DNA from: Methyloceanibacter methanicus
GTDB lineage: Bacteria; Pseudomonadota; Alphaproteobacteria; Rhizobiales; Methyloligellaceae
Assembly (NCBI RefSeq): GCF_001723285.1
Contig: NZ_LPWG01000014.1
Location: forward strand, 186,001 to 250,000
Direction: 5' to 3'
DNA: 64,000 bases
Below are positions 7,870 to 32,444 of the stretch, piece after piece. The notes beneath the pieces are model-generated. The model was not told where the DNA came from. It worked only from the letters and a program-made list of their open reading frames with translations, and made no database searches. A program made the position numbers and the translations under genes. Position 1 is the first letter of the stretch. Each line of letters starts with the position of its first letter.

Positions 7870-9141
7870 CTATTCGTCAGTCCGCTTGGTCTCCGGCGCG
7901 AAACGCCGGACCACGGCCGGAAGCGTCAGGCTCTGGACCACAAGCGAGAATAGGACGACCGCGTAGGTCGCGGCTAGAATTTGCGGGCGCGAATCGATAT
8001 GCGGAATCGTCAGGGCCAGGGCCACGCAGACGCCGCCCCGCACGCCGCCCCAGGTGAGGATGGGAACGGTGCCCTTCACGTAGTGCTGCTTGAACCCGAC
8101 AAAGGCCATGGGCAGCGCCACCGCGAAGAAGCGGGCGGCGAGAACGATCGGAATGGCGGCGAGCGCGAGCGGCAGGAGCGACACGTCGAACTGGACCACG
8201 ATCACCTCCAGTCCGATCAAGAGGAACAGGATCGCGTTGAGGACCTCGTCCACCAGGCCCCAGAACGCATAGATGTAGCGCTCCGTATCGCCGTCCATCG
8301 CCAGCCTGCGGCCGCGATTGCCGATAAGGACACCGGCCACGACCACGGCGATCGGGCCGCTGAACCCGTGGACCTGCGCGAAGGAATAGGTGCCCGTCAC
8401 GAGGGCGAGCAGGATCAGGATCTCGGTCGGATAGTCCTTGATGCTCCGGAGGCCGAGATAGGCCAGATAGCCGGCGAACAGACCGAGCGCAGCGCCACCC
8501 AAAGCTTCGACGAAGAACAGTTCCGCGATCCGGCCGAAGTCGATGCCGCTGTCGCCCGCCCCGCTCACGGCGGCGCTGAGCAGGACGGTAAAGAGCACCA
8601 CGCTGACGCCGTCGTTGAACAAGGACTCCCCGGCCATGTCCATCTCCAGCGTCTTGTCGACCTTGGCCTGTTTCAGCACGTTCAGCACCGCGACGGGGTC
8701 CGTCGGGCTGATCAGGGCGCCGAAGACGAGCGCCCAGGCGAAAGGGATGGGCTGGGGAAGAACCTGGGACGCCCCCCAGATGAGGCCGCCCACCAGCACC
8801 GTGGAGATGATGACGCCCAGCGTCGCCATGGCCCCGACGGTCCAGGCCCGCTCGCGCAGCAAGGACAGGTCGATCTGGATCGCGCCGGCGAACAGGAGGA
8901 AGGCGAGCATCCCGTGCAGCAGGGCATAGGAGAAATCCATCGTGCGCAGATGGCCCTCGATCTGGCCGAACAAGGCGATCTGCGGCACGGCGACCTCGAG
9001 GGCGATCAGGATGAGCGAGGCGCAGATCCCCATCGCCATGATCCCGACCGTGTTGGGCAGGCGCAGATAGCGCTGGTTGATCCAGGCGAAAAGCGCCGTG
9101 ATCACCAGGAGCCTGGCGATGAACTCGTAGATTGTCGGCAC
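7870..9141 (-). CDS. Sodium/proton antiporter, CPA1 family
   Basis: A 423-residue integral membrane protein with about 12 helices. The central motif ALISPTDPVAVL with the nearby MAGESLFNDGVSVVLF is the signature of bacterial CPA1 exchangers (the ND pair is the ion-binding site). It should exchange cytoplasmic Na+ or K+ for H+. There is no long cytoplasmic C-terminal domain such as TrkA_C. The start at 9141 gives a membrane-embedded N-terminus, as usual for the family. It stands alone on the minus strand. Confidence 0.9.
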   Translation of the reverse strand: MPTIYEFIARLLVITALFAWINQRYLRLPNTVGIMAMGICASLILIALEVAVPQIALFGQIEGHLRTMDFSYALLHGMLAFLLFAGAIQIDLSLLRERAWTVGAMATLGVIISTVLVGGLIWGASQVLPQPIPFAWALVFGALISPTDPVAVLNVLKQAKVDKTLEMDMAGESLFNDGVSVVLFTVLLSAAVSGAGDSGIDFGRIAELFFVEALGGAALGLFAGYLAYLGLRSIKDYPTEILILLALVTGTYSFAQVHGFSGPIAVVVAGVLIGNRGRRLAMDGDTERYIYAFWGLVDEVLNAILFLLIGLEVIVVQFDVSLLPLALAAIPIVLAARFFAVALPMAFVGFKQHYVKGTVPILTWGGVRGGVCVALALTIPHIDSRPQILAATYAVVLFSLVVQSLTLPAVVRRFAPETKRTDE

Positions 9142-9551
9142 GTCGCGCGGTCCGGTGCTGTTGCAAGGCTTGAGGGGAGGTTACGGGCCCCGGCAGTCGG
9201 GGAAAATAGGCGGCGTCCTACTTTTGGCTTCTAGACCCGCGGGCCCGGTCCAGGGTAAGCGATGGGGCGAAGAGACGAGATTCTCACAGATCGGGCTGCC
9301 GATTTCATGACGCTCGCGACCTCATTTCGGTGCCATTTGGGCATGGTGCGCAAGACCCTCCACGAAGAGCGCCGGAGAGGGTGCGACTCGTTATCAGGTT
9401 TCCCGATATGGCCCTGGCAACCCGGTCGGGACGTGATATCAGCATGCCGAATTCATTCGCCGGCATAGGGAGGGGCGTCGCCCCGCGCACTGGGCCTGCC
9501 GCCGGCAGTCTCGGCACCGGTTGCTGCAAGAGCTGAGGAGGCTGAGTTTTC
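9142..9551. other. Intergenic region between antiporter and pyrophosphatase genes
   Basis: About 410 bp between two divergent genes. It must hold both promoters. Only short open frames without family signal are present. A GAGGAGG ribosome binding site for the pyrophosphatase gene lies at its right end. I see no strong repeat or hairpin. Confidence 0.5.
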
Positions 9552-12026: not shown

Positions 12027-13584
12027 GTGTCCGCAGAGGCACCGGAGAGTGAGGCCAAGGAGATCGAGCTCAAGCTCGTCTTCGACCCCGAGCAGGCCGC
12101 GGCCTTGTGTGCGCATCCTCTCTTCGAGGCGGGCAGCGACACCGCTGTGGGTCCGCGCGTCCTCGAAAGGAAGGAGCGCGCGCTCATCTCCATCTATTAC
12201 GACACGCCGGACGATGTTTTGCGCAAAGCGGGCGTATTCCTGCGCGTGCGCAACACCGGCGCGGGCTTTGTCCAGACGATCAAGACCGCGCGCGCCGAGA
12301 GCGAGTTTCTGGAGCGGCGCGAGTGGGAATGCAAACTGCCGTCGGATGCCTTCGATCTATCCAGGGCGGAAGGGACCGCGCTCGCACCACTTCTAAGCGA
12401 TGCGGTACGGGCGGCGCTCGGGCCACGGTTCGAAACCCGGTTCGCGCGGCAAACTTACCTCATCGACGACGACGGGACCTTGGTCGAGGTCGCCGTCGAT
12501 CAAGGCGACATCGTCGCGGGGGACAAGAGCACCCGGGTCTGCGAGCTCGAGCTGGAGCTCAAATCCGGGAAAAGCGCCGCGTTGTTTTCGCTGGCGAAGC
12601 GTTTGGCCGAAACCGTGCCGTTGACCCTGAGCGTGAAGACCAAGGCGGAGCGCGGGTTCGATCTGCTCGACGGCGGCGAGCCCGAGTTCGAAAAGGCCCT
12701 GCCTGTTGAAATCGCGCCGGACGAGACCTGTGCGGACGCTTTCCGCATCGCCGCGCGCAACTGCCTGCGCCAGGTGCTGGTGAACCTGCCGGGTACGCGC
12801 GCCGGCCGTGCCGAGTCGCTGCATCAGATGCGCGTCGGCTCCGGCGCTTGCGGGCGGCGGTCACGCTCTTTGGTGACGTGGTCGACGGTCCCCACCGGGC
12901 GCAAGTCGCCACGGAGTTGAAATGGATCGCCGGTCAGCTCGGACCCGCCCGCGATCTCGACGTGTTCATCTCGGACATCGTCGAGCCCCATCGCGCGGAC
13001 TATCCGGACGATCCGGGCTGGAAGGCCGTCGAGGGACGCGTTCGCGCGCCCGGGAGGAGGCGTACAAGGCCGCCGTTGCGGCGACGGGCTCGGCGCGCTT
13101 CCGCCTCGCGTTGCTGGACGTCGGCGCCTGGATCGAGTTCGGCGATTGGACGGAGGACGGCAATCGCCTGGCCCGGGCGCCTGTCGAGGGCTACGCGTCG
13201 GCGAAACTTTCGCAACTGCGCCGCAGTGTCGTGAAGAACGGGAAGGACCTCCATAAGCTCAGCGTGCCCAAACGCCACCGGCTGCGCATTCTTGCAAAGC
13301 GTATGCGCTACGGAAGCGAGTTTTTCGGCGCGACGTTTCCGGGAAAGCGGAGCGCCAAGCGGTGCCAGAAATCGCTCGCGGCGCTCGAGGAGCTTCAGGA
13401 TTCGCTTGGCATGCTGAACGATATCGCCAACCGGCAGACCCTTTTCGATCTCGGCGAGGACGGTCCCGACCCGGCGACGCTGCCCATGCCGAAGGTCGGC
13501 CCGACCGAAGAGAAGTCGCTGATGAAGACGGCGAGGAACGCCTATGCGCGCTTCGCCAAAGTCGGACCGTTTTGGAGGGCGTAG
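12027..13584 (+). CDS. CYTH-CHAD domain protein, two frame breaks
   Basis: The N-terminal part begins EIELKLVFDPEQAAALC, the ExExK start of the CYTH (triphosphate tunnel) fold, with later ERKERALISIYYDTPD, ELELELKSG and KTKAERG. The C-terminal half is a CHAD domain: ESLHQMRVG then LRRLRAAVTLF, GPARDLDVF and KLSVPKRHRLRILAKRMRYGSEFF, rich in conserved His/Arg/Lys for polyphosphate binding. Frame changes near 12838 and 13049 each need one extra base. The family cleaves triphosphates or binds polyphosphate granules. A GTG start after GGGAGGAG was chosen. Confidence 0.8.
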
Positions 13585-17205: not shown

Positions 17206-18642
17206 GTGCTGCAGAAGCTCTGGTACGATCAGCCCGTTCGCACGCAACTCATTGTTGTCGTGGCGACAATCAATCTTATTGCGGCCCTGATCGCGGGCGC
17301 CGTGGCGATTTACAACACCCGTACGGCGACTAAGGTTGAAATGGATGCTTCGCTCGAAGTGGCCGAGCGTTTCGTCGACGTGACGCTCAGGGACCTTGCC
17401 GCGCAAGGCAAACTCGACACTCTCGACGATGAGTTGCCGCCGTTGTTGCGGCACTTGCGCCACGTCCGGATCATGTTCATGAGCAATTCTGGCCAGTTGG
17501 CGATCATTTCGCCCAAAGGGGAGGCCGGCGGGGTCAACCCATCGCACGCCCCCGAATGGTTCGTGTCGCTCGTCCATCCCGAGGTGGCACAGCGGAAGGT
17601 ACGGCTGCTGCCCGACGGGTCGCATCCCGTCATCATTCTCGGGGAACCGTCGGACGAAATCACCGAGGCCTGGCAGGACTTCCTGTCGCTCGCCGTGATC
17701 TGGATCGCAATCAACACGATCGTGCTCGTGGTGCTCTATATTGTCCTCGGGCGTATCCTCAATCCGATAGCGAGCTTGTCCAGAGGCATGCATCAGCTCG
17801 AAGGTGGCGAGTACGGAGCCCGGGTTCCGGGTTCGAAGGTCAAGGAACTGGCCGTCATCACGGATCGGTTCAACACGCTCGCGAGTGCGCTCGACGTGAC
17901 CCGAAAAGAGAACGAGGATCTTTACCGCCAGCTCATCAACGTTCAGGAAGCCGAGCGCCGCGAGATCGCCAACGAGCTTCACGACGAGGCGGGGCCTTGC
18001 CTTTTTGGCATCGCCGCGAATGCCTCGTCGATCCAGACCACGGCCGGCCAGTTGTCGGGCGAGCGTGCCGCGAGAATTGCCAACCGCGCCGGTGAAATTC
18101 TGTCGATCGCCGAGCGCCTGAAAGCCATGAATCGGGCGCTTCTGAAGAAGCTGCGCCCGGGTCCGCTCGGCCAGGTCAAACTGGCCGATCTCATCGTCGA
18201 GCTCACCGCAGGCCTCCAGGGCCGGCACCCCGATACGCAGGTTCACACAACCGTGCGGTCAATCGAGAAGTCCTACGGGGAGCCGGTCGACCTTGCGGTC
18301 TACCGCTGTATCCAGGAAGCGATCACCAATGCGATTCGCCACGGTCACGCGGAGAACGTCTACGTGGACCTCGACCAGCGGCACCGGGCAAATGGACGTG
18401 GTGGCGACCATAAGGAAGTTTGGCTGACGGTCTCGGACGACGGAAAAGGTATGCCAAAGGTCTCCAAGGGCTTCGGGCTCACAACCATGACGGAGCGCGT
18501 GCGGTCGGTCGGCGGTGAGTGCACCATCGAGAGCGTACCGTTCAAGGGCACGACCGTCAGGGTCGAAATTCCAATCAAGCAGACAAGAAAACAAACGACC
18601 GCGCGCGCGCAGGCGCCTCAATCGGTCAGGGAGCTAACATGA
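17206..18642 (+). CDS. NarL-type sensor histidine kinase of the methanol island
   Basis: 478 residues. A first helix at about 14-36, a periplasmic sensor region of about 120 residues, a second helix at about 161-182, a HAMP domain (GRILNPIASLSRGMHQLEGG), then a HisKA_3 dimerisation domain with the phospho-acceptor His in EIANELHDEAGPCLFGI (His259) and a C-terminal ATPase domain with the N box EAITNAIRHG and G box SDDGKGMPK. Its GTG start has GGAGA about 10 bp upstream. The stop overlaps the response regulator start (ATGA). By position it resembles the MoxY/MxaY kinases that control methanol dehydrogenase genes in Paracoccus and Methylobacterium. The ligand is unknown. Confidence 0.85.
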   Translation: MLQKLWYDQPVRTQLIVVVATINLIAALIAGAVAIYNTRTATKVEMDASLEVAERFVDVTLRDLAAQGKLDTLDDELPPLLRHLRHVRIMFMSNSGQLAIISPKGEAGGVNPSHAPEWFVSLVHPEVAQRKVRLLPDGSHPVIILGEPSDEITEAWQDFLSLAVIWIAINTIVLVVLYIVLGRILNPIASLSRGMHQLEGGEYGARVPGSKVKELAVITDRFNTLASALDVTRKENEDLYRQLINVQEAERREIANELHDEAGPCLFGIAANASSIQTTAGQLSGERAARIANRAGEILSIAERLKAMNRALLKKLRPGPLGQVKLADLIVELTAGLQGRHPDTQVHTTVRSIEKSYGEPVDLAVYRCIQEAITNAIRHGHAENVYVDLDQRHRANGRGGDHKEVWLTVSDDGKGMPKVSKGFGLTTMTERVRSVGGECTIESVPFKGTTVRVEIPIKQTRKQTTARAQAPQSVRELT

Positions 18643-19289
18643 CTAGAGTGCTTGTCATCGACGATCATCCGATCGTTCTGCAAGGAACCCAGCAATTGCT
18701 GGAGGATGTCGGCGTGAAACACGTTCATCAGGCGCAGAGCCTGGCGGACGGCTTTCGCGCCTACCGCACCCAGAAGCCGGACGCAATCATCGTCGATCTT
18801 GCCATGCATAGCGGCTCGCTCGGAGGCTTGTCCTTCATCCGGCGATTGCGGTTGCACGATCAGAACACGCCGATCTTGGTCTTCACCATGCACTCCGATC
18901 CCGTGATCGTTTCGCGTGCCCTCGAAGTCGGGGCCACGGGCTACGTCCTCAAGGACACGCCGCCCGAGGAGGTGCAGACCGCGTTTCAGCGCGTGCGTGA
19001 GAATCGTCCCTATCTCAGCCACGACCTCGCCTCGGAGGTCGCCTTCATGGAGGCGCGCGGCACGACGAATCCTCTGCGCCGCATGACCGTCCGCGAGTTG
19101 CAGACGCTCGCGCTTGTCGCGGAAGGCAAGCCCTACGGCGTCATCGCCGAGCATTTGCATGTGAGCTACAAGACCGTGGCGAACACCTGTACGCAGCTGA
19201 AAGCAAAACTCGGCGTGCGGACGCTGCCCGAGCTGATGCGCATCGCCATTCAGCATCTTCCGGCGGCTAACGGAAAGATGCAGCGCTAA
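18639..19289 (+). CDS. NarL/LuxR-family response regulator
   Basis: 216 residues. A receiver domain (MTRVLVIDDHPIVLQGTQQL; phospho-acceptor Asp53 in IIVDLAMHSG; Lys in GYVLKDTPPEE) is followed by a LuxR-type helix-turn-helix (LTVRELQTLALVAEGK-like start, HLHVSYKTVANTCTQLKAKLG). It overlaps the kinase gene by ATGA. The pair fits a MoxX/MxaB-type role and may bind the TTGGCA palindromes near the xox genes; that link is inference from position. The start was set at 18639 because the overlap is typical and the family start MTRVLVIDDHP is there. Confidence 0.87.
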   Translation: MTRVLVIDDHPIVLQGTQQLLEDVGVKHVHQAQSLADGFRAYRTQKPDAIIVDLAMHSGSLGGLSFIRRLRLHDQNTPILVFTMHSDPVIVSRALEVGATGYVLKDTPPEEVQTAFQRVRENRPYLSHDLASEVAFMEARGTTNPLRRMTVRELQTLALVAEGKPYGVIAEHLHVSYKTVANTCTQLKAKLGVRTLPELMRIAIQHLPAANGKMQR

Positions 19290-19760: not shown

Positions 19761-21650
19761 ATGAAATTCAAGTTTGGTGTCCTGACCGGCACGATCGTCG
19801 CGGTGACGATGGGCCTTGCAGGTCAGGCGTCGGCTATGAATACCGACGAAGAGCAACTGAAGCGCATGGCCGATCCCGATCAGTGGCCCGCCCCTGGTCG
19901 TGATTTTTCGCTGACGCGTCACAGCGCTCTTTCGGACATCAACACCGACAATATCAACAAGCTGCAGATGGCCTGGATGCAGGGCTCCAATGCCCTTCGC
20001 GGTCACGAAGGCCAGCCGCTCGTGATCAAGGACGTGGGCGGCAAGACCATGCTGTTCATGATTTCGGGTTGTCCGTCCATGGCCAACTGTAACGTGGTTC
20101 AGGGTCTGGATCTGACGGACTCCGACAATCCGAAGCAGGTTTGGTCCTATGTGAAGAAGACCGATCGTGACGAGTCGGCCGTGCCGCGCGCTTGCTGCGA
20201 CACCGTCAACCGCGGCGGCTCCTATGCCGACGGCAAGTTCGTGTTCGGCACGCTCGATGGCTTCCTCATTGCCCTCGATGCTCAGACCGGCAAGGAAGTC
20301 TGGGTCGTGAAATGGGCCTATCCCGAGAAGGGCGAGACCATCACGCCGGCGCCCTTGATCGCCGACAACAAGGTGTTCATCGGCTTCGGCGGCAGTGAGT
20401 TCGCCGCGCGCGGCCGTGTCGGCGCCTTCAATCTGTCGGACGGTTCCGAGGCTTGGGTGTGCCATACGACGGGTTCCGACAAGGACGTGTGCCTGACGCC
20501 GGACACCAACAAGGCCAATCCGCATTACGGTCAGGCTGGCGAGGATCTTGGTATCAAGACCTTCCCCGGCGAGGACTGGAAGATCGGCGGCGGCACGGCG
20601 TGGGGCTGGTACTCCTACGATCCGGACACGAAACTGGTTTACTATTCGACCGCCAATCCCGGTCTGTGGAGCCCGCAATATCGTTGCCCGGGCAAGACCC
20701 ACGAAGAGTGCAACACCGGCGCGTTCGACAACAAGTGGACGCTTAGCATGTTCGCTCGGAAGATCGAGACCGGTGAGGCCGTCTGGGTGTACCAGATCAC
20801 GCCTTTCGATCAGTGGGACTATGACGGCATCAACGAGAACATCATCACCGAGATGGAAGTCGACGGTAAGAAGCGGAAGGTGCTCTCCCACTTCGACCGC
20901 AACGGCTTCGCTTATGTGTGGGATGCCGCCGACGGCACGCTTCTCCGCGCCACGAAATACGTGACCGTGGATTGGGCCGAGAAGATCGACCTGAAGACCG
21001 GCCGTCCGATCAAGGTACGTGACCACTCGCCGCTCGAAGTTGGCCGCAACGTCTCTGCCTGCCCGTCCGCGATGGGTGGTAAGGACCAGCAGCCCGCGTC
21101 CGTCGATCCGAAGGAGCCGAACCTCTTCTATGTGCCGACAAACAACTGGTGCATGGAACTGGAACCCCAGGAGCGCACGCACACGAACCAGGGCACGGTC
21201 TATGTGTTCGCGAACGTGTACATGTATCCTGAGAAACCCGGCACCACCGGCAAGATCAAGAAGTACGACGTCCTGACGGGTAAGACGGTCTGGGAGATTC
21301 CGGATCCGTTTCCGAACTGGAGCGGCACGATGGTCACCGACGGTGGTCTGATGTTCTACGGTTCGCTTGGCGGCGACTTCCGCGCGGTCGATCGGAGTTC
21401 CGGCAAGATCCTGTGGAGCCGCAAGCTGGGGTCGGGCATCATCGGCAACCCGATCACCTGGAAGACCGGCGGCAAGCAGTATGTCGGCGTGTACTCCGGC
21501 ATCGGCGGGTGGATCGGTCTTCCGGTCACCGCTGGTCTGGACCTGAACGACAAGTTCGGCGCCATCGGTGCCACGGCCATGACCAAGGCCGCCGGCCTGC
21601 AGCATGTCCCGCAGGGCGGTACACTGAACGTCTTCCGCGTCTACGACTGA
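19761..21650 (+). CDS. xoxF: PQQ methanol dehydrogenase, XoxF type, first copy
   Basis: 629 residues. A 25-residue signal peptide (cut after GQASA) leads to an eight-bladed quinoprotein propeller with several W motifs. The vicinal Cys pair near PQQ is present (ACCDTVNRG, Cys145-Cys146). The catalytic Asp lies in QWDYDGINEN (Asp353), and the residue two positions later is Asp355, the extra ligand that marks lanthanide-using XoxF enzymes (MxaF has Ala there). Glu213 and Asn299 are the other expected metal ligands. It oxidises methanol to formaldehyde or formate in the periplasm and passes electrons to a cytochrome c. No mxaI small-subunit gene is near. GGGAGAGGAG precedes the ATG. It is about 88% identical by eye to the next copy. 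Confidence 0.93.
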   Translation: MKFKFGVLTGTIVAVTMGLAGQASAMNTDEEQLKRMADPDQWPAPGRDFSLTRHSALSDINTDNINKLQMAWMQGSNALRGHEGQPLVIKDVGGKTMLFMISGCPSMANCNVVQGLDLTDSDNPKQVWSYVKKTDRDESAVPRACCDTVNRGGSYADGKFVFGTLDGFLIALDAQTGKEVWVVKWAYPEKGETITPAPLIADNKVFIGFGGSEFAARGRVGAFNLSDGSEAWVCHTTGSDKDVCLTPDTNKANPHYGQAGEDLGIKTFPGEDWKIGGGTAWGWYSYDPDTKLVYYSTANPGLWSPQYRCPGKTHEECNTGAFDNKWTLSMFARKIETGEAVWVYQITPFDQWDYDGINENIITEMEVDGKKRKVLSHFDRNGFAYVWDAADGTLLRATKYVTVDWAEKIDLKTGRPIKVRDHSPLEVGRNVSACPSAMGGKDQQPASVDPKEPNLFYVPTNNWCMELEPQERTHTNQGTVYVFANVYMYPEKPGTTGKIKKYDVLTGKTVWEIPDPFPNWSGTMVTDGGLMFYGSLGGDFRAVDRSSGKILWSRKLGSGIIGNPITWKTGGKQYVGVYSGIGGWIGLPVTAGLDLNDKFGAIGATAMTKAAGLQHVPQGGTLNVFRVYD

Positions 21651-21675
21651 CGCTGACAGGCTCTTGAAACGAATG

Positions 21676-21704
21676 GCGCTCGATGCCCACGCGGCATCGG
21701 GCGC
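21676..21704 (+). terminator. Rho-independent terminator after first xoxF
   Basis: GCGCTCGATGCC-CACGC-GGCATCGGGCGC forms a 12-bp stem with one T-G pair, followed by TTCTTCGTTT. The stem is nearly the same as the one after the second xoxF copy. Confidence 0.85.
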
Positions 21705-21778
21705 TTCTTCGTTTCGGGACGGCCTCAGAATGAGAGGGGAGGGCCGCGCCCGGGCGCCTGCGCCCAGCCCGTGCCGCG

Positions 21779-22364: not shown

Positions 22365-24254
22365 ATGAAACTCAAGTATGGTGTCCTGACTGGCACCATC
22401 GTCGCGGTGACGATGGGTCTTGCTGGCCAGGCGTCGGCTATGAATACCGACGAGGAGCAGCTGAAGCGTATGGCTGATCCCGACCAGTGGCCTGCCCCTG
22501 GTCGTGACTTTGCTTTGACGCGTCACAGCACGCTCTCTGACATTACGACCGACAATGTGAACAAGCTGCAGATGTCTTGGGCCCAGGGCACGAACGCCCT
22601 TCGCGGTCACGAGGGTCAGCCGCTTGTGATCAAGGACGTCGGCGGCAAGACCATGCTGTTCATGGTTTCGGGTTGCCCGTCCATGGCCAACTGTAACGTG
22701 GTTCAGGCTCTCGATCTTTCGGATCCTGACAATCCGAAGCAGGTCTGGTCGTATGTGAAGAAGACCGACCGTGACGAGTCGGCTGTGCCGCGCGCTTGTT
22801 GCGACACCGTCAACCGTGGCGGCTCCTATGCCGATGGCAAGTTCGTGTATGGCACGCTCGACGGGTTCGTGATTGCCCTCGATGGCCAGACCGGCAAGGA
22901 AGTCTGGGTCGTCAAGTACGCTTACCCTGAGAAGGGTGAAACCATTACCCCCGCTCCGTTGATCGCCGACAACAAGGTGTTCATGGGCTTTGGTGGTGAT
23001 GAGTTCGCCGCTCGTGGCCGCGTTGCCGCCTTCAATCTGTCGGACGGTTCCGAGGCTTGGGTTTGCCACAGCACGGGTTCCGACAAGGACGTGTGCCTGA
23101 CGCCTGAGACCAACAAGGCCAACCCCCAATTCGGTCAGGCTGGTGAGGATCTTGGTATCAAGACCTTCCCCGGTGAGGACTACAAGATTGGTGGTGGTGC
23201 TGCTTGGGGTTGGTATTCCTATGACCCCGAGCTGAAGCTGGTCTACTACTCGACCGGTAACCCCGGCCTGTGGAGCCCTTCTTATCGTTGCCCCGATAAG
23301 ACCCATGAGGAGTGCAACACTGGTGAGTTCGACAACAAGTGGTCGATGACGATCTTCGCTCGCAAGATCGAAAACGGCGACGCTGTCTGGGCTTATCAGA
23401 TGACTCCGTTCGACCAGTGGGACTATGACGGCATCAACGAGAACTTCCTTACCGACATGGATATCGACGGTAAGAAGGTGAAGGCCCTCACTCACTTTGA
23501 CCGTAACGGCTTTGCCTATGTCATGGACCGTACCGACGGCACGCTTCTCCGCGCCACGAAGTACGTCACCACGGACTGGGCCGAGAAGGTCGACATGAAG
23601 ACCGGCCGTCCGATCAAGGTTCGTGACCACTCGCCGCTCGAAGTTGGCCGCAACGTCTCTGCCTGCCCGTCTGCTATGGGTGGCAAGGACCAGCAGCCTG
23701 GTTCGGTCGATCCGAAGGAGCCGAACCTCTTCTACATGCCCACCAACAACTGGTGCATGGAGCTGGAGCCTCAGGAGCGCACGCACACGAACCAGGGCAC
23801 GGTCTACGTGTTCGCGAACGTGTACATGTATCCTGAGAAGCCCGGCACCACCGGCAAGATCAAGAAGTACGACGTCCTGAGCGGCAAGACCGTTTGGGAG
23901 ATCCCGGATCCGTATCCGAACTGGGGTGGTACGATGGTCACCGACGGTGGTCTGATGTTCTACGGCTCGCTTGGTGGCGACTTCCGCGCGGTCGACCGGA
24001 GTTCCGGTAAGGTCCTGTGGAGCCGCAAGCTGGGTTCGGGCATCATCGGCAACCCGGTCACGTACAAGGTCGGTGGCAAGCAGTACGTTGGTGTCTATTC
24101 GGGCATCGGCGGCTGGATTGGCCTCCCGGTCACCGCTGGTCTGGACCTGAACGACAAGTTCGGCGCCATCGGTGCTACCGCCATGACCAAGGCCGCTGGC
24201 CTGCAGCATATCCCGCAGGGCGGTACGCTGAACGTCTTCCGCATTTACGAGTAA
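22365..24254 (+). CDS. xoxF: PQQ methanol dehydrogenase, XoxF type, second copy
   Basis: 629 residues, collinear with the first copy: signal peptide MKLKYGVLTGTIVAVTMGLA, Cys145-Cys146, Glu213, Asn299, catalytic Asp353 and lanthanide-type Asp355 are all kept. Codon use differs strongly from the first copy and from neighbours: GGT, GCT, CGT and GTT are frequent where copy one uses GGC, GCC, CGC and GTC, the pattern of very highly expressed genes. The 3' third shares long identical stretches with copy one. The last 25 bp of leader including GGGAGAGGAG and the terminator stem are also shared. This is probably the main methanol dehydrogenase; copy one may serve another condition. Confidence 0.94.
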   Translation: MKLKYGVLTGTIVAVTMGLAGQASAMNTDEEQLKRMADPDQWPAPGRDFALTRHSTLSDITTDNVNKLQMSWAQGTNALRGHEGQPLVIKDVGGKTMLFMVSGCPSMANCNVVQALDLSDPDNPKQVWSYVKKTDRDESAVPRACCDTVNRGGSYADGKFVYGTLDGFVIALDGQTGKEVWVVKYAYPEKGETITPAPLIADNKVFMGFGGDEFAARGRVAAFNLSDGSEAWVCHSTGSDKDVCLTPETNKANPQFGQAGEDLGIKTFPGEDYKIGGGAAWGWYSYDPELKLVYYSTGNPGLWSPSYRCPDKTHEECNTGEFDNKWSMTIFARKIENGDAVWAYQMTPFDQWDYDGINENFLTDMDIDGKKVKALTHFDRNGFAYVMDRTDGTLLRATKYVTTDWAEKVDMKTGRPIKVRDHSPLEVGRNVSACPSAMGGKDQQPGSVDPKEPNLFYMPTNNWCMELEPQERTHTNQGTVYVFANVYMYPEKPGTTGKIKKYDVLSGKTVWEIPDPYPNWGGTMVTDGGLMFYGSLGGDFRAVDRSSGKVLWSRKLGSGIIGNPVTYKVGGKQYVGVYSGIGGWIGLPVTAGLDLNDKFGAIGATAMTKAAGLQHIPQGGTLNVFRIYE

Positions 24255-24279: not shown

Positions 24280-24310
24280 GGCGCCCGATGCCCTTGTGGC
24301 ATCGGGCGCC
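24280..24310 (+). terminator. Rho-independent terminator after second xoxF
   Basis: GGCGCCCGATGCC-CTTGT-GGCATCGGGCGCC is a perfect 13-bp stem with a 5-base loop, followed by TCTTCCTTAT. It separates the xoxF transcript from xoxJ. Confidence 0.9.
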
Positions 24311-24413: not shown

Positions 24414-26245
24414 GTGTTAATCCGTTTTTCCACCATCACCGCGACGATTGCCGTCGCAGCGCTCTCTATCGGCATTGTTTCCGCCCATGCCGACGACAAG
24501 ACCCCGATCCGGCGCGATCTGAACAAGACCTACGAGGAGCTTACGCCGAGCGAGCACATCGCGATTCGTGCCGCCGCAAAGGCCGCCTACAAGGGTAAGA
24601 AGCTCAAGACCCTCAATATCTGCGCCGACCCCGGCAACATGCCGCTCTCGAACATTCAAAGAGAGGCTTCCAGAACAAGATTGCCAAATTGCTGGCCGAC
24701 GCGACCGGCGCCGAGATCAAATATCATTGGCAGCCCTTCATCGAACGCGGTCTCACCCGCTCGACCTTCGACGAGCGCCTTTGCGACGTGATGTTCGACA
24801 TTCCGAGGACCTATGAGCGGCTCCTCACGACCGAGCCGATCTACAAGACCCCGTACGTCTTGGTGTACCGGAACGACGAAGGGTTGAAGCTGTCGGGCCT
24901 GGACGATCCCAAGCTGAAGGATCTGACCATCGGCGTGTTCCAGACATCGGGCGTGCGCCTGGCGCTCACGAAGCGCGGCATCATCGACAACGTGAAGCTG
25001 CAGCTTCAGACCCATGACGGCGATCTCGTTCCGGAGAATCAGCCTTGGTATGTGATCCAGAAGATGCTGGACGGCGAGGTGGACGTCGCCTCGGTCTTCG
25101 GGCCGTTCGCGGGCTGGGTCAAGACGATGAAGAACGAGCCGATCGACATCGTGCCGATCAACCTGGACGACGATACGGTGCCGATGGAATTCGAAATGTC
25201 CCTCGGCGTGCGGAAGACCGACGTCTTCCTCAAATACCTGCTCGAATGGGCCATGGACGACCACGCCGAGGAAATTGCGGCGATCCTGAACGAATTTGGC
25301 GTCCCGCTGGTCCAGTGCAGCAAGTGCTATGTCCCGGGCGATCTGCCGGCCCATGGCAGCTACATCAAGCTCGCGGATCAGAAGTTCGAAGCGCGCCCGG
25401 ATCTGGCGTCTCCCGATCAGGTGGTGACCCAGGAGAAGCTTGAAGGCTGGCTCGAAGAGGGCGCCGACCCGAATCAGGAATTGAGCAATGCCCTGCTGTC
25501 CGGAGACAAGGATCGGATCAAGTTCCTGGTCTCCAAGGGTGCCGACGTCAACAAGCCCGATCTCCAGGGCTGGACGCCCCTGACGGCCGCGGCCCGCCAG
25601 CGCCGGAACGAGACGATCGATCTTCTGGTGGAACTGGGCGCCGATCCCAGCAAGGCCGACGGCAACGGGTTGACCCCGTTGGCGGCCGCGCTGATGCGCG
25701 ATCACGTACCCTCGATCACGGCGCTGATCGAGCATGGTGCGAACGTGGAGGAGCCTGGCCAGGAGGATTACCGGCCACTCGCTCTGGCCCTTGCGGAAAA
25801 GAAGTATGAATCCGCGAAGGCGCTGATGGCCGGCAACGCCGATGTCAGCGTGCCCTCTGGCAGCCAGGGTCTGACCCCGCTCATGATCGTGGCGGCCCAA
25901 ACGGGCCCGGCGGAAGGGTCGATCTTCCTGCCCGGCAGCGCCCGGCCGACGGACATTGCCAAGGCCTTGGTGGACGCCGGCGCGGACGTGGATGCGCAGG
26001 CGGCGAACGGCATGACCGCGCTGATGATCGCGGCCGCGAACAACAGTGCGCCGATGATCGGCCTGCTGATGGATGCCGGCGCCGATCCGAGCCTGAAAAA
26101 CGCGCAAGGCCAGACGGCGGAGGATGTCGCCAATCTCAACGACAACAAGGAAGCGTCTCAGGCCATCCGGGTCCTGTCCTTGTCGCGGGCGAGCGTTCCC
26201 AAACAGGCGGGCAGCAGCAGCAGCGGCGAGACCGCGAAGCAATGA
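24414..26245 (+). CDS. xoxJ: XoxJ/MxaJ-like periplasmic binding protein fused to ankyrin repeats, one frame break
   Basis: Signal peptide (LIRFSTITATIAVAALSIGI ending SAHA), then a type 2 substrate-binding fold of the MxaJ group: LNICADPGNMPLSN, KIAKLLADATGAEIKYHW, RLCDVMFDIP, VASVFGPFAGW. The frame breaks near 24664 (one base missing in what should read EGFQNKI). After the binding domain, with a Cys pair in VQCSKCYVPGDL, come about 250 residues of ankyrin repeats with the marks DLQGWTPLTAAAR, DGNGLTPLAAAL, GLTPLMIVAA and ANGMTALMIAAA. MxaJ and XoxJ normally stop after the binding domain at about 270-300 residues, so this 610-residue fusion is unusual. XoxJ is thought to help mature or activate XoxF. 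A GTG start follows TTGAGGCG. The stop overlaps the next gene. Confidence 0.85.
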
Positions 26246-27084
26246 TGACCTGGGTTGCACAGGGACTGAATAAATGGGGGGCCGCGGCAATCGCCGTGGC
26301 CTTCTGTTTAGGTGCGGCCAGTCCAGGAACGGCGGCGGACTACCCGGACTTCGACGATGCCTCGGTGACCGCGCGGACCGAAGAGGTCATCAAGGAGCGT
26401 TCGCAGGATGGGGTGTTCGTCTTTCACGATCCCAAGCTCAACCAGGACCTCAACCTCGTCTACGAGAAGATGCGGGTCGTGCGCGGCATGAAGGGATATG
26501 GCTGGTTCGCCAACGCGATCTTCCACGACGAGGACGAGCCGAAGAAACAATACGCGATCGACTTCTGGTTCAAGCCCCAGCGCGACGGCGACAGCCTCGA
26601 TCTGATCGATATCCGCGTCCAGAAGGGCCCCAAGCGCGATGGCGACGGTTACATCATGGTCACGCGTTTGCCCGTGGCTTGGTGGTGGTTGCCCGTGCAG
26701 GAGCATCCAGGCGACATGGAAGTCGTGCGGGCGTGGCATGTGATGAGCGCGATCCACAATTACATCGCCGAGAACAAGAACGAGGACGGGGCACTCGAGC
26801 TGACCGACGAGAAGACCGGAGAGACGATCCCGCTCGAGTTCGTCGAGATGCACCAGCCGGTCCGTTATCTGAAGAAGGACGGCCACTATTTCGCGTGCAC
26901 CGATTTCCGGCGCGCGGGCAGCAAGGACGAGTACTACGACGTCGACTTTTGGGTGGACGAGAAGACCGGCCGGCTGACGGTCACCGACGCGAAGATCCAC
27001 AAAGTGCCCGTGAAGGAAGACGGTGTTTGGATCCAGGTGCCGCGCTATACGTTCGAGGACATGGACTTCGAGATCACCCAGTAG
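26242..27084 (+). CDS. Unknown exported protein of the xox island
   Basis: 280 residues, with a signal peptide (AAIAVAFCLGAASPGTAA). The mature protein is rich in Trp, Tyr, Asp and Lys and has two similar halves with beta-strand character: YAIDFWFKPQRDGDSLDLID with IRVQKGPKRDGDGYIMVTR, and YDVDFWVDEKTGRLTVTDAK with IHKVPVKEDGVWIQVPRYTF. The internal repeat suggests a duplicated beta domain. No family is recognised. It is translationally coupled to xoxJ-ankyrin (ATGATGA overlap), so it probably works with it, for example in XoxF maturation or metal supply. That role is inference. Confidence 0.75.
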   Translation: MMTWVAQGLNKWGAAAIAVAFCLGAASPGTAADYPDFDDASVTARTEEVIKERSQDGVFVFHDPKLNQDLNLVYEKMRVVRGMKGYGWFANAIFHDEDEPKKQYAIDFWFKPQRDGDSLDLIDIRVQKGPKRDGDGYIMVTRLPVAWWWLPVQEHPGDMEVVRAWHVMSAIHNYIAENKNEDGALELTDEKTGETIPLEFVEMHQPVRYLKKDGHYFACTDFRRAGSKDEYYDVDFWVDEKTGRLTVTDAKIHKVPVKEDGVWIQVPRYTFEDMDFEITQ

Positions 27085-27594: not shown

Positions 27595-28122
27595 GTGCGC
27601 AAGATTATCACTGGAGTACTGACAGTTGCCTTCGTGGGCGCCATGAGCGCGTTCGCGTTGGGCGCCAAGGCGGAAGAGTGCTGTGCCAAGGACGACAAGA
27701 CCCCGCCGCTGGAGCTCATTGAGAAGACCCCGATTGGCGGTCTGCACAACCCCTACAATGACGACGTGACGGGCATGGAAGAGGTCGGCCACAAGAAATA
27801 CCTTTCCTACAGCTGCAATGGCTGCCATGGCGGCGGCGGCGGCGGCGGCATGTGCCCGCCCCTGACGAACGATACCTTCGTGTATGGCGCTGACGACGAC
27901 ACGCTGTTCCGCCTGATCGCGCTGGGCTCCGACGAGCTGCAGAAGGACGGTTACACGCGCGTCCGCAAAGAGATCGTGACGGGGCCGATGCCGCCGTTCG
28001 GCAACATCATCAAGACCTCCGACGAACTGTGGCGAGTCATCGCCTTCATCCGCGCCAAGAATCCGAGCTCCATGAAGGACGTGTCCAACCCGGCGCAGAC
28101 GCCCGGTGGCGCCGCCGAGTAA
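27595..28122 (+). CDS. xoxG: Cytochrome c of the XoxG/cytochrome cL role
   Basis: 175 residues. The signal peptide is MRKIITGVLTVAFVGAMSAF, ending near AKA. One haem site is present: SCNGCHGG (Cys74, Cys77, His78), followed by a remarkable run of Gly; the axial Met is probably in GPMPPFG (about residue 132). The last part WRVIAFIRAKNPSS is a typical cytochrome c end. Cytochromes of this kind take electrons from XoxF to the oxidase chain. It has its own leader and terminator, so it is a separate transcript. An extra Cys pair (EECCAKDDK) just after the signal peptide is unusual. Confidence 0.85.
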   Translation: MRKIITGVLTVAFVGAMSAFALGAKAEECCAKDDKTPPLELIEKTPIGGLHNPYNDDVTGMEEVGHKKYLSYSCNGCHGGGGGGGMCPPLTNDTFVYGADDDTLFRLIALGSDELQKDGYTRVRKEIVTGPMPPFGNIIKTSDELWRVIAFIRAKNPSSMKDVSNPAQTPGGAAE

Positions 28123-28409: not shown

Positions 28410-29731
28410 ATGCAACTGTTGCGCTCGAAATTTCCAGCCTTGATCGGTGTGTGTTTGCTCGCTGGCGTCGCCACGCCGGTGCCTGCTGCCGCGGAGGAGA
28501 CGGCCGAGACGCCGTCCGCGGAGACACCGGCCCCGGACGCTCCGTCTTCGAGGGCCCCGGCGGCAAAGCCTGCCGCCGCGACCAAGAAGACCGCCGCCCC
28601 CGCCGCCGATAAGAAGTTGTTGCGGATCGTCTATCTCGGCAAGGAGTACGACGAGCCGCTCCCGCTCTCCTACGCGGAGAAGGAGATCACCGACAAAGGC
28701 ATTCAAGGCGCGCGCCTCATGCTGAAAGAGGCCAATCAAGCCGGCAATTTCGTCGGCTATGCCTTTGAGATGGACGAGGTCATCGTGCCCGAGGACGGGG
28801 ACGTCGTCGCCAAGGCCAAGGAGAGGCTGGCCGCGGGCGATCGCTTTTTTATCGCCGACCTGGAGCCCGACGATCTCTTGGCCGTGGCCGACCTGCCGGA
28901 GGCCAAGGACGCGCTCTTCATGAACATCCGCTCCAGTGCCACGAAGCTGCGTCAGGAGGAGTGCCGCCAGAACGTCTTCCACATCATTCCCGACTACGCG
29001 ATGCGCGCGGACGCCATTGCCCAATATCTGATCTGGAAGAAGTGGCCCAAATGGTACGTCGTGCGCCGCGATACGCCGGAGGATCAGGATTACGTTGCGC
29101 AAGTGGAGCGCTCCGCCAAGCGGTTTGGCGGCAAGGTCGTGGAGGATCATCTGTACGATCTGCCGCCCGGCGCCCGGAACCTCGATTCCGGTCACCAGCA
29201 AATTCAACAGCAGATGGCGCAGGAGACCGAACGCGCGCCCGAGCATGACGTCGTTTGGGCGATCAACAGCGACGACGATTTCGGCGACTACCTGATGTAT
29301 CGCACCACGTTGCCGCGACCCGTGGTCGGTACCCAAGGGCTTCAGGCGACCGCGTGGGACAAGTCCTATACGGAGTCCGGCGGCATGCATTTTCAGAACG
29401 CCATTCCGAAGCTTGCCAATCGCGCGCCGGTGGAACGCGACTACACGGCCTGGCTGGGTTTCCGGTCGCTGGCCGACGCGGCGATGAAGTCGGGCACGGT
29501 CGATCCCAAGGGCGTGAAGGACTACATGCTCTCCGATCAGTTCCGGCTCGAAGCGTTCAAGGGGCAGGCCCTGAGCTTCCGGCCATGGGATCACCAGATG
29601 CGGCAACCGGTCATCCTTGGCGGCGCACGCGCGTGCCTGTCACGACGTCGCCGCAGGAAGGCTTCCTGCACCCGACCAACATCACCGACACGCTCGGTTT
29701 CGATCAGCCCGAATCCAAGTGCAAGTTCTAA
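28410..29731 (+). CDS. PQQ-dehydrogenase-associated ABC-type binding protein, first copy, frame broken near the end
   Basis: About 440 residues. The signal peptide ends VPAAAEE and is followed by an Ala/Pro/Lys linker, then LLRIVYLGKEYDEPLPLSYA and a type 1 periplasmic binding fold (FFIADLEPDDLLAVADLP, HIIPDYAMRADAIAQYLIWK, EHDVVWAINSDDDFGDYL). This is the substrate-binding family that accompanies PQQ alcohol dehydrogenase systems (TIGR03863-like). Near 29625 one base is missing; the true end reads SPQEGFLHPTNITDTLGFDQ and stops at 29731. AAGGA precedes the ATG at 28410. No ABC ATPase or permease gene is near, so it may act as a periplasmic chaperone or sensor instead of an importer part. Confidence 0.8.
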
Positions 29732-29911: not shown

Positions 29912-30105
29912 CACTTGGCATTGGTCGGACGAAGCCCCTGTACCATTTTGGGAACTGAGCCTTCGCTCTTGGCGGAACAATGCTCCAAGCGGGTGGACAA
30001 TTGATCCGTCCGTGCGGTGCGCATTGTCGAGGGCGAGACGGCCCGAGACCGAAGGGCGCGAAAAGCCCTCTGACAACAACAACCAAACTTGGAAACGTTC
30101 GAGAC

Positions 30106-31434
30106 ATGAAACTGAGTTTACGTGTTTCCCCGCCGCCGCGTGCCCTCTGCTCTGGGATGGCGATCGCGGCCTTCCTTTTCTCATCGATAGCGATTGGATC
30201 TTTGCCGGCAGGCGCCGAAGACGCGGAGGCGCCGGCGGAAGCCAAGACGCCGCCGGAACCCAAGTCCAAGAGCGCTGCGCCGGCCGCGGCCATGCCGGGT
30301 GTCAAAGAGAAGAAGCTGATGCGCGTCTTCTACCTCGGCAAGAAATATGAAGAGCCGCTCCCGCTCTCCTATGCCGAAGCAGTCATCGAGGACAAAGGCA
30401 TCCAAGGGGCCCGTCTTGCCGAGAAGGACGCCAACAAGGCCGGCTCCTTCCTCGGCAATACCTTCGAGCTGGAGGAGGGCGTCGTTCCCGAAGACGGCGA
30501 TGTGGTGGCGAAGGCCAAGGAGGCGCTGGCAGCCGGTCAACGCTTCTTCCTCACCGACCTCGAGCCCGACGATCTGCTGGCCGTGGCCGATCTGCCCGAG
30601 GCCGAGGACGCCATCTTCATGAATATCCGCTCCAGCGCCACGAAGCTGCGCCAGGAGGAGTGCCGCCAGAACGTCTTCCATATCGCGCCCGACTATGCCC
30701 AGCGCGCGGACGCCATTGCCCAGTACATGATCTGGAAGAAATGGCCGCGCTGGTTCCTGATCCGGCGCGACACCGTGGAGGATCAGGACTATGCTGAGCA
30801 GGTGAAGCGGGCGGCGGGCCGGTTCGGCGGCAAGGTGGTCGAGGACCATCTCTACAACCTGCCCCCGGGTGCCCGGAACCTGGACTCGGGCCACCAGCAA
30901 ATCCAGAAGCAAATGGCCGAGGAAACCCAACGTGCGCCCGAGCACGACGTCGTCTGGGTCGTCAACAGCGACGACGATTTCGGCGACTACCTGGCCTACC
31001 GCACCTATAGCCCGCGGCCCGTCGTCGGCACGCAAGGCCTGCAGGCGCTTGCCTGGGACCCGTCCTACACCGAATATGGCGCGATGCGGTTCCAGAACGC
31101 GCTTCCCAAGCTGGCGAACCGGAACCCCGTCGAGCGGGACTATCTGGCGTGGATCGCCTTCCGCTCCCTGTCAGACACCCTGAAGAACACCGGGAGCGTG
31201 GATCCGGAAGAAGTGAAAGCCTATATGCTCTCGGACGATTTCAAGCTCGCCGCCTACAAGGGGCAAGCCATGAACTTCCGGGACTGGGACCACCAGCTTC
31301 GCCAGCCTATTATCCTTGGTGGCGGTCCGCGTGTTCCCGTCTCGACGTCGCCGCAGGAGGGCTTCCTGCATCCAAAATACGTGACCGACACGCTTGGTTT
31401 TGATAAGCCTGAATCCAAATGCAAGTTCAAATAA
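30106..31434 (+). CDS. PQQ-dehydrogenase-associated ABC-type binding protein, second copy
   Basis: 442 residues, intact and collinear with the first copy: signal peptide, Ala/Pro/Lys linker, LMRVFYLGKKYEEPLPLSYA, FFLTDLEPDDLLAVADLPEA, DYLAWIAFRSLSD and the end SPQEGFLHPKYVTDTLGFDK. The copies are roughly 75% identical by eye, so they are an old tandem duplication. The upstream DNA is also partly duplicated (GGCGGCCTTTC plus the palindrome). Only 20 bp separate it from the beta-propeller gene, so these two form an operon. The ligand is unknown; neighbours point to methanol dehydrogenase assembly or PQQ or metal handling. Confidence 0.85.
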   Translation: MKLSLRVSPPPRALCSGMAIAAFLFSSIAIGSLPAGAEDAEAPAEAKTPPEPKSKSAAPAAAMPGVKEKKLMRVFYLGKKYEEPLPLSYAEAVIEDKGIQGARLAEKDANKAGSFLGNTFELEEGVVPEDGDVVAKAKEALAAGQRFFLTDLEPDDLLAVADLPEAEDAIFMNIRSSATKLRQEECRQNVFHIAPDYAQRADAIAQYMIWKKWPRWFLIRRDTVEDQDYAEQVKRAAGRFGGKVVEDHLYNLPPGARNLDSGHQQIQKQMAEETQRAPEHDVVWVVNSDDDFGDYLAYRTYSPRPVVGTQGLQALAWDPSYTEYGAMRFQNALPKLANRNPVERDYLAWIAFRSLSDTLKNTGSVDPEEVKAYMLSDDFKLAAYKGQAMNFRDWDHQLRQPIILGGGPRVPVSTSPQEGFLHPKYVTDTLGFDKPESKCKFK

Positions 31435-31454: not shown

Positions 31455-32444
31455 ATGAAACGCACCAACCTTGCCATTACTTGCGCGACGACCCTGTTTT
31501 TGGGCGCCGCGGGTGTAGCCCATGCTGAGACGATCTTCGTCTCCAACGAGAAGGACAATACGATCACGGTCCTGGACGGCGACACGATGGAGGTGATTAA
31601 GACGATCGAGACGGCGCGGCGTCCGCGCGGCATCATTCTGGGCCCGGACTTCAAGGAATTGTTCGTGGCCGCCGGCGATGGCGACATCATCGATGTCATC
31701 GACACCAACACCCTGGAGATCACGCGGCAGCTCGAGAGCGGTCCCGATCCGGAGCTGATGGACGTCGACCCGGATGGCAAGATCATCTACATCGCCAACG
31801 AAGACGACAGCATGGTCACCATCATGGACGTCGCCAGCGGCGACGTGCTGGCCGAAGTGCCGGTGGGCGTCGAGCCCGAAGGCATGGCCGTGAGCCCGGA
31901 CAACAAGTACACCGCGGCCACCTCCGAGAGCACGAGCATGGCGCATATCATCGAGAATGCGTCCCAGCAGCTCGTGGCCAATGTCCTGGTCGACTCCCGG
32001 CCGCGCGAGGCCAAGTGGACCAAGGACGGCAAGGAGCTGTGGGTCTCCTCGGAGGTCGGCGGTACGGTCGCCGTGATCGACCCGGAGACTTGGGAGATCA
32101 CTAAGAAGATCACCTTCGAGGTCCCCGGCGTCCGCCCCGAGCAGCTTCAGCCGGTCGGCATGGACTTCGTGAAGGACGGCACGCTGATGATGGTGCCGCT
32201 TGGGCCGTCGAACCGCGTGGCGGTCATCGACACCGCCAAGAAGGAGGTCGTCGACTATATCCTGGTCGGACAGCGTCCCTGGCACGGTGAGCCGAGCGCC
32301 GACGGCAAGAGCTACTACGTCGCCAACGGCCTGACCAACGACATGACCATCATCGACCTCGACTCGCTGAAGGCAACGAAGTCCGTCCCCGTGGGACGTC
32401 TTCCCTGGGGCGTCGCCGTGATGCCCGGCAAGCCTGGCGCGTAG
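31455..32444 (+). CDS. PQQ-system-associated YVTN-type beta-propeller protein
   Basis: 329 residues, signal peptide MKRTNLAITCATTLFLGAAG ending AHA. The mature part consists of about seven YVTN-like repeats: IFVSNEKDNTITVLDGDT, LFVAAGDGDIIDVIDTNT, IYIANEDDSMVTIMDVAS, LWVSSEVGGTVAVIDPET, YYVANGLTNDMTIIDLDS. This is the propeller family that travels with the PQQ-associated binding protein (TIGR03866-like). It has no catalytic motif and is probably an assembly or interaction factor in the periplasm. The start is at 31455 with AGGGA upstream, 20 bp after the preceding gene. Confidence 0.87.
   Translation: MKRTNLAITCATTLFLGAAGVAHAETIFVSNEKDNTITVLDGDTMEVIKTIETARRPRGIILGPDFKELFVAAGDGDIIDVIDTNTLEITRQLESGPDPELMDVDPDGKIIYIANEDDSMVTIMDVASGDVLAEVPVGVEPEGMAVSPDNKYTAATSESTSMAHIIENASQQLVANVLVDSRPREAKWTKDGKELWVSSEVGGTVAVIDPETWEITKKITFEVPGVRPEQLQPVGMDFVKDGTLMMVPLGPSNRVAVIDTAKKEVVDYILVGQRPWHGEPSADGKSYYVANGLTNDMTIIDLDSLKATKSVPVGRLPWGVAVMPGKPGA

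Follow-up and report, generated by a model that had tools for sequence, protein, structure and literature searches.

A XoxJ-type binding protein fused to ankyrin repeats lies behind XoxF1-type dehydrogenase genes in Methyloceanibacter methanicus and other bacteria

The window analyzed here, a stretch of 64,000 nucleotides from Methyloceanibacter methanicus, holds at 24414-26245 a gene whose product joins a XoxJ-type binding domain to seven C-terminal ankyrin repeats. This fusion was present in every sampled XoxF1 genome whose sequence extends far enough to show it. It may well be a dedicated maturation partner of XoxF1, with the ankyrin arm as a second docking surface that grips the enzyme. 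The gene belongs to an operon-like run on the plus strand, made up of a kinase and regulator, two xoxF genes, the fusion, a 280-residue protein, a XoxG-like cytochrome, two genes of the PQQ_ABC_bind type and a beta-propeller gene:

17206-18642, plus strand: sensor histidine kinase (profile matches)
18636-19289, plus strand: LuxR-type response regulator (profile matches)
19761-21650, plus strand: xoxF copy a, which shares 90% identity with copy b and has Ser in place of the XoxF1-diagnostic Asp (GGSEF)
21675-21705, plus strand: sister hairpin behind xoxF copy a
22365-24254, plus strand: xoxF copy b, of the XoxF1 type (GGDEF, DYD), directly 5' of the fusion
24280-24310, plus strand: GC-rich hairpin between xoxF and the fusion, terminator-like or a processing stem
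24414-24665, plus strand: 5' part of the fusion gene, with GTG start, probable signal peptide and the first ~84 codons, in a frame that differs from the remainder
24660-24670, plus strand: frame break, one G absent from a G run relative to four relatives (alignment)
24666-25312, plus strand: remaining XoxJ-type binding domain (TIGR03871), in the second frame (profile match)
25313-25402, plus strand: hinge with CxxC (CSKC, 25316-25327) and GDLPAHG (model of the ortholog L007, conservation)
25403-26194, plus strand: ankyrin domain of seven repeats, with an insertion in the fifth (profile matches, model of L007)
26242-27084, plus strand: 280-residue secreted-looking protein of no family, its start overlapping the stop of the fusion (ATGA)
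27595-28122, plus strand: XoxG-like cytochrome c, under the cytochrome cL cut-off (profile match)
28410-29731, plus strand: first PQQ_ABC_bind-type gene, with a frame break near 29605 (seen by eye on comparison with the second copy)
30100-31434, plus strand: second PQQ_ABC_bind-type gene (TIGR03863, 385.8 bits, cut-off 413.6)
31455-32444, plus strand: PQQ-dependent catabolism-associated beta-propeller (TIGR03866, 433 bits, cut-off 287.3)

The outer limits of the hinge were transferred from the model of L007, with an offset of 92 residues.

That a single gene carries both a XoxJ-type domain and ankyrin repeats, as a preliminary description of the window had proposed, is borne out by matches to TIGR03871 and Ank and by the L007 model. 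The main open frame (24689-26242) matched TIGR03871 over residues 2-208 (E 7.5e-51, 173 bits), under the cut-off of 212.15 because the N-terminus sits in another frame. The intact ortholog L007 exceeds this cut-off (223.8 bits), and all 27 rows of alignment A2, drawn from 18 of the 50 loci in named genomes and nine genus loci, match at E <= 0.001; alignment A1 comprised 16 of the 18 genus fusion references listed. The window frame also matched Ank_2 (PF12796; E 2e-28, 99.2 bits, gathering score 27.3) and Ank (PF00023; E 8e-27, 92.2 bits, gathering score 21.1). A Dot/Icm ankyrin effector (NCBIfam AnkY, AnkH and others) was rejected as an identity, the best score being 71.9 bits against a cut-off of 600 and covering the repeats only. 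Profile searches found no cytochrome family match in the fusion, the cytochrome being a separate gene at 27595-28122. A length of about 270-300 residues is customary for XoxJ and is no part of the TIGR03871 family model. With about 600 residues the fusion departs from this single-domain size, and because of this length and the ankyrin domain it was classed as a XoxJ variant and not as an ordinary XoxJ. The motif GAGG sits about 10 bases 5' of the GTG and a signal peptide was called by eye; from the sequence we infer that the protein is exported to the periplasm. Chance is excluded as an origin of the fusion by the profile matches, by both-domain matches in 14/17 genus genomes and by an ankyrin dN/dS of 0.04-0.15.

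The fusion had been taken to be in frame over the whole of 24414-26245, which is not the case. The frame that begins with the GTG at 24414 meets a stop after 125 codons, and the remainder lies in another frame that is open from 24599 and corresponds to a 518-codon ORF (24689-26245). Alignment with four relatives (L006-L009) showed that one G is absent from a run of G near 24665. All four relatives carry the fusion without an internal stop, which rules out both a separately encoded ankyrin part in relatives and a base error as the origin of the fusion; the absent G divides the N-terminus instead. Of the ORFs of the sister genome G005 (>=150 codons), 37 match the window at 70% or more. Five of these were flagged as frame-broken, of which four are convincing, including the fusion gene, and the fifth, an antisense ORF, is doubtful. 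Additional conserved genes of the window are also frame-broken, at about 4899, 12839-13042, 29605 and 59669.

The several broken genes in the window indicate an indel-prone assembly. Since the gene is unbroken in four close relatives and the assembly has other broken genes, a base error is likelier than decay, and the break in the fusion gene is probably an assembly error in a gene that is whole in life. Alternatively, the absent base could be real and the gene of this strain a true pseudogene, with the work being done by the second fusion of the same genome (L002), an unbroken gene of 630 codons behind another xoxF on contig 13. The break is indeed present in the assembly, and this paralog is intact and 48% identical. 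However, the absent base falls within a G run, the remainder of the gene is open, and the four convincing broken genes together with the first PQQ_ABC_bind gene point to indels in the assembly, so that we regard a pseudogene as unlikely and the gene as probably whole. Frame breaks in the fusion recur in other assemblies (G016/L080, G020/L077 and G015). A programmed frameshift was considered for these and rejected, as the breaks lie at differing places and most listed genus orthologs are unbroken; it is also disfavored by the breaks in other genes of some of those assemblies (xoxF in L065; in L080, PQQ_ABC_bind and the gene of the 280-residue protein). One place of breakage, at query residue 211/212, is shared by members of two genera, Methyloligella halotolerans (L077) and Methyloceanibacter superfactus (L080).

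The same domain order was found in other genomes, with both-domain matches in 14 of the 17 genus genomes and in further genera; the three genus genomes in which no fusion was found are 81-85% complete. Besides the two fusions, the M. methanicus genome encodes L003, a stand-alone XoxJ, and L005, which is MxaJ-like. A scan of the contigs of named genomes, fetched with two peptide patterns of which one was the CxxC hinge, yielded 50 fusion loci. The closest belong to Methyloceanibacter MAGs, Methyloceanibacter superfactus and Hyphomicrobiaceae MAGs, and others to Hyphomicrobium zavarzinii, Methyloligella sp. GL2, Filomicrobium, Chthonobacter, and MAGs of Oceanicola, Beijerinckiaceae and Candidatus Binataceae. 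The Binataceae MAG (L075) has a XoxF1 operon with the fusion that groups with L141 from the Beijerinckiaceae sample (support 100/100) and is a gene transfer or a misplaced contig; it was the only fusion among the 148 genomes of its phylum, that of G315. The phylum sample contained the fusion in one genome outside Alphaproteobacteria. One partial fusion (L082, Chthonobacter rhizosphaerae G296, 7950-9240) sits right behind a xoxF that has an internal stop; it keeps the hinge and the ankyrin part, the first half of its binding domain is gone, and it is a deletion or an assembly fault.

In a XoxJ/MxaJ tree of 32 fused and eleven unfused rows, the fused domains formed one side of a single branch (support 100/99, present in 200/200 bootstrap trees). 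This shows the unity of the fused domains within the sample and not a deep root, because most of the unfused rows are from a single genus and the tree contains some long branches. A stand-alone ankyrin protein (L004) is encoded elsewhere in the M. methanicus genome (contig C1, 1219-2172) in an open frame of 318 codons that, by eye, begins with a signal-like stretch, and proteins of this type occur in relatives too (L028-L030). It is a possible source of the ankyrin part of the fusion.

The AlphaFold2 model of L007, built from the 27-row alignment (mean pLDDT 82.5, pTM 0.50), comprises a binding-protein fold at about residues 65-300 and an ankyrin solenoid at about 331-594, in which seven helix pairs were counted by hand from the listed helices. 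The relative placing of the two domains is not fixed by the model because of the pTM of 0.50 and the poorly predicted hinge. The binding domain resembles MxaJ (5sv6, Z 25.9), XoxJ (6onp, Z 24.2, rmsd 1.8, 210/211 aligned) and the MxaJ chain of the MxaF/MxaJ complex (9ism_B, Z 23.4), and the second domain matches ankyrin proteins with Z up to 26.2; the list of structure matches is mostly ankyrin and carries little information on other parts. The description of TIGR03871 as a putative ABC transporter substrate-binding protein would suit a different reading, by which the binding domain takes a small ligand such as PQQ or a lanthanide carrier and is linked through the ankyrin part to a transporter or receptor. 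Nevertheless, none of the ten window proteins that were profile-scanned was a permease or transport ATPase, and the nearest binding-protein folds are those of MxaJ and XoxJ, the former solved in complex with MxaF. We therefore hold a small-ligand role to be highly improbable and retain that of a maturation partner which grips XoxF1.

At the junction of the domains, C302, C305, G309, P312 and G315 are invariant in 26/26 scored rows (the truncated L081 was dropped from the identity and entropy figures), a count that leans toward the hinge because the loci were fetched partly with the hinge pattern. CxxC was also present in 9/9 fusions that were found via xoxF and not via the hinge, four of which have K or R at the hinge proline. 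In the fusion from outside Alphaproteobacteria, CxxC and the first glycine are retained and the remaining hinge residues are not; by eye, this protein is also without the insertion in the fifth repeat that occurs in A2 rows. No CxxC was seen in the tails of four distinct stand-alone XoxJ genes (the pattern caught 5/13 loci, two of which were the same gene). Across five species, dN/dS was 0.01-0.10 for the XoxJ domain, 0.00-0.06 for the hinge and 0.04-0.15 for the ankyrin part; dS exceeded 1 in several pairs, and no value was obtained for one hinge pair. These ratios indicate that purifying selection acts on both the XoxJ and the ankyrin domains.

Such figures bear on whether the ankyrin part has a partner at all, or is a rigid spacer or stabilizer of the binding domain. 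Its conservation is lower than that of the XoxJ domain (mean pairwise identity of 0.49 versus 0.58) and many of its invariant positions are typical structural residues (G, A, L), as might be expected of a spacer. On the other hand, its dN/dS is well under 1, some of its conserved features, such as an RNHVP/RDHVP turn, are particular to it, and no XoxJ lacking ankyrin repeats was seen beside XoxF1 in the samples. Thus, a partnerless spacer seems decidedly unlikely to us, and an arm that docks on XoxF1 is preferred.

The claim that the fusion is tied to the dehydrogenase was upheld by its surroundings: a xoxF gene lies 5' of it in 54/54 loci with enough flank, out of 59 (the 50 named loci and nine from the samples). 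The structure nearest to copy b was 7o6z (868 bits; the next, 558), which we take to be the XoxF1-type enzyme of Methylacidimicrobium thermophilum AP8. Aligned with 7o6z, copy b carries the XoxF1-diagnostic Asp (GGDEF). Copy a, in tandem before copy b, was not filed as a proven XoxF1 because it has GGSEF, despite its 90% identity to copy b. A XoxF1-type enzyme is reported for strain AP8, and an Asp before the metal-binding Glu is given as diagnostic of XoxF1 (PMC8546591). The xoxF genes 5' of the fusion are 64-94% identical to copy b. Their motif has Asp in 50 of 51 readable cases and Ala in one (G1011, before a cut fusion); among the other eight of the 59 loci, the motif lay outside the flank in three and five were without enough xoxF.

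The association also held in samples that were searched by XoxF1. In the order sample, 17/297 genomes had a XoxF1-type match (E <= 1e-230), and in 16 of these the fusion is directly behind xoxF (G296 being the partial one); in the 17th (G038) xoxF lies on a contig of 3,367 bases that runs only 348 bases further. In G004 the xoxF of the first locus is cut by the contig end and the second locus is complete, and in G016 one fusion copy is frame-broken and the other intact. The Beijerinckiaceae sample had XoxF1 in 7/199 genomes, six with the fusion and a seventh whose contig ends in the hinge. Two XoxF1 genomes beyond M. methanicus itself were present in the phylum sample (398 genomes), both with the fusion, one being alphaproteobacterial (the genome of L074, by coordinates) and one from another class. 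In total, 24 of 26 sampled XoxF1-type genomes have the fusion (one partial), the contigs of the other two end first, and no ankyrin-less XoxJ adjoining XoxF1 was seen in the sampled genomes of the order, Beijerinckiaceae and phylum sets. In the class sample (385 genomes) XoxF1 was found at E <= 1e-200 in the M. methanicus genome only; together with the single occurrence among the 148 genomes of the phylum of G315, this means that XoxF1 with the fusion is rare overall. The converse fails, as there are xoxF1-like copies with no xoxJ match nearby (L144 in the M. methanicus genome and L139 in G908). Extra xoxF1-like copies vary at the diagnostic site, with Ser in copy a (and also in L080) and Asn in an orphan copy (L123/L144, contig 12 of M. 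methanicus); the copy before the fusion keeps Asp.

Other neighbors are less constant. In tblastn searches with window queries, which may miss diverged neighbors, XoxG was found near the fusion in 35/53 loci, PQQ_ABC_bind in 42/52, the beta-propeller in 47/49 and the 280-residue protein in 5/53. Ankyrin repeats are general protein-binding scaffolds, and this generality, along with the frequency of the beta-propeller and PQQ_ABC_bind genes behind the fusion, would fit an arm that docks one of these proteins or the cytochrome as an adaptor to an electron acceptor or cofactor source. Yet the fusion stays without a XoxG match in 18/53 loci and without a PQQ_ABC_bind match in 10/52, and at the locus outside Alphaproteobacteria PQQ_ABC_bind gave no match and the beta-propeller is only a distant one (29% identity). 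This alternative is, in our opinion, somewhat unlikely. Because XoxF1 is the sole neighbor found at every testable locus, it is the likeliest second target, in agreement with the docking of the arm on XoxF1 itself.

The protein at 26242-27084 had been put forward as a partner, which does not apply to the fusion in general, as it follows the fusion in only those 5/53 testable loci (seven counting two with short flank, all from the genus group of the window). Its model, for which the masked row L040 was dropped from the alignment, is of low confidence (pLDDT 61.7). The best Foldseek matches of this model were cystatins (E 4e-4 but TM 0.22), a hint of two cystatin-like halves. As for the hairpin between xoxF and the fusion, a perfect stem of at least 8 pairs was present in 11/18 other xoxF-xoxJ intergenic stretches, mostly of similar sequence. 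The hairpin behind xoxF is possibly an attenuator or a processing stem that gives more XoxF than helper.

A periplasmic surface that may grip XoxF, as first suggested, is supported by context. By analogy with the solved complex of MxaJ and MxaF (9ism), the XoxJ domain would hold XoxF1 in a similar manner. The ankyrin arm, attached through a flexible hinge marked by a CxxC that may form a disulfide, would grip XoxF1 at its other protomer or unfinished propeller, and this grip would last while PQQ and metal are loaded. Since other XoxF types have ankyrin-less XoxJ, the chemistry does not in general require the arm. A bolder form of this idea, and one we consider quite unlikely, is a two-handed XoxF1 clamp shared by two or more classes of Pseudomonadota and by a Binatota MAG, with the XoxJ hand on one face of XoxF1 and the ankyrin hand on the second protomer or the open propeller; here the CxxC disulfide would be made and broken as a switch, perhaps exchanging with the disulfide over PQQ in XoxF1.

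The fusion is like XoxJ (TIGR03871; 6onp, Methylobacterium extorquens) in its sequence, which is over the cut-off in L007, in its fold and in its place beside xoxF. Unlike XoxJ, it adds the CxxC hinge and seven ankyrin repeats after the binding domain, whereas L003, the 294-codon stand-alone XoxJ of M. methanicus, stops there. The "XoxF1" of M. extorquens is presumably a strain gene name for an enzyme of clade 5. In M. extorquens with lanthanum, loss of xoxJ or xoxG is reported to equal loss of its xoxF genes, and its XoxJ to bind and activate XoxF (PMC7391723). The fusion shares with MxaJ (TIGR03870; 5sv6, 9ism) the fold and the place next to a dehydrogenase gene, but L007 scores 107.2 bits against the TIGR03870 cut-off of 258.1, and the MxaJ-like gene of M. 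methanicus (L005) adjoins a mxaF-like gene, separate from the fusion. With L004 it has in common the ankyrin repeats (33% identity to the ankyrin part), whereas L004 is without a binding-domain match in Pfam and lies on another contig.

A XoxJ fusion already known is XoxGJ of Methylacidiphilum, in which XoxJ is likewise joined to another part; there, however, this part is reported to be the cytochrome XoxG and not an ankyrin domain (PMC8498564). The organisms with XoxGJ are described in the accessible text of PMC8546591 as having only XoxF2, and in Methylacidimicrobium, which has XoxF1, the corresponding text of PMC8498564 gives XoxG and XoxJ as separate genes. No report of a fusion of XoxJ or MxaJ with ankyrin repeats was found in the literature searched, which lacks most subscription papers, and relative to this literature the ankyrin fusion is new.

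In G923, probably Methylocella silvestris BL2, three dehydrogenase genes map to 3.460 Mb (xoxF1), 1.714 Mb (XoxF-like) and 0.522 Mb (MxaF-like), and the gene behind xoxF1 is the fusion (L134). For strain BL2, Msil_3149 is given as xoxF1, 1587 as xoxF5 and 0472-0485 as the mxa operon (PMC9291206). From these gene positions we infer that XoxJ1 of M. silvestris (Msil_3148) is the fusion. The XoxJ1 protein was reported by proteomics, with a 62-fold drop with lanthanum compared to a sevenfold drop of XoxF1 and XoxG1, and deletion of xoxF1 had little phenotype (PMC9291206). The protein is termed a solute-binding protein in that work, the main text of which, as accessible, does not contain the word "ankyrin".

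The role of XoxF1 in Methylocella has been termed unclear (PMC9291206), and the fusion would add to the annotation of the "solute-binding protein" of that organism. It may also serve as a marker for XoxF1 operons in metagenomes. Finally, a XoxF1 helper that bears an arm, which could be removed separately, offers a handle on how XoxJ and MxaJ aid methanol dehydrogenases.
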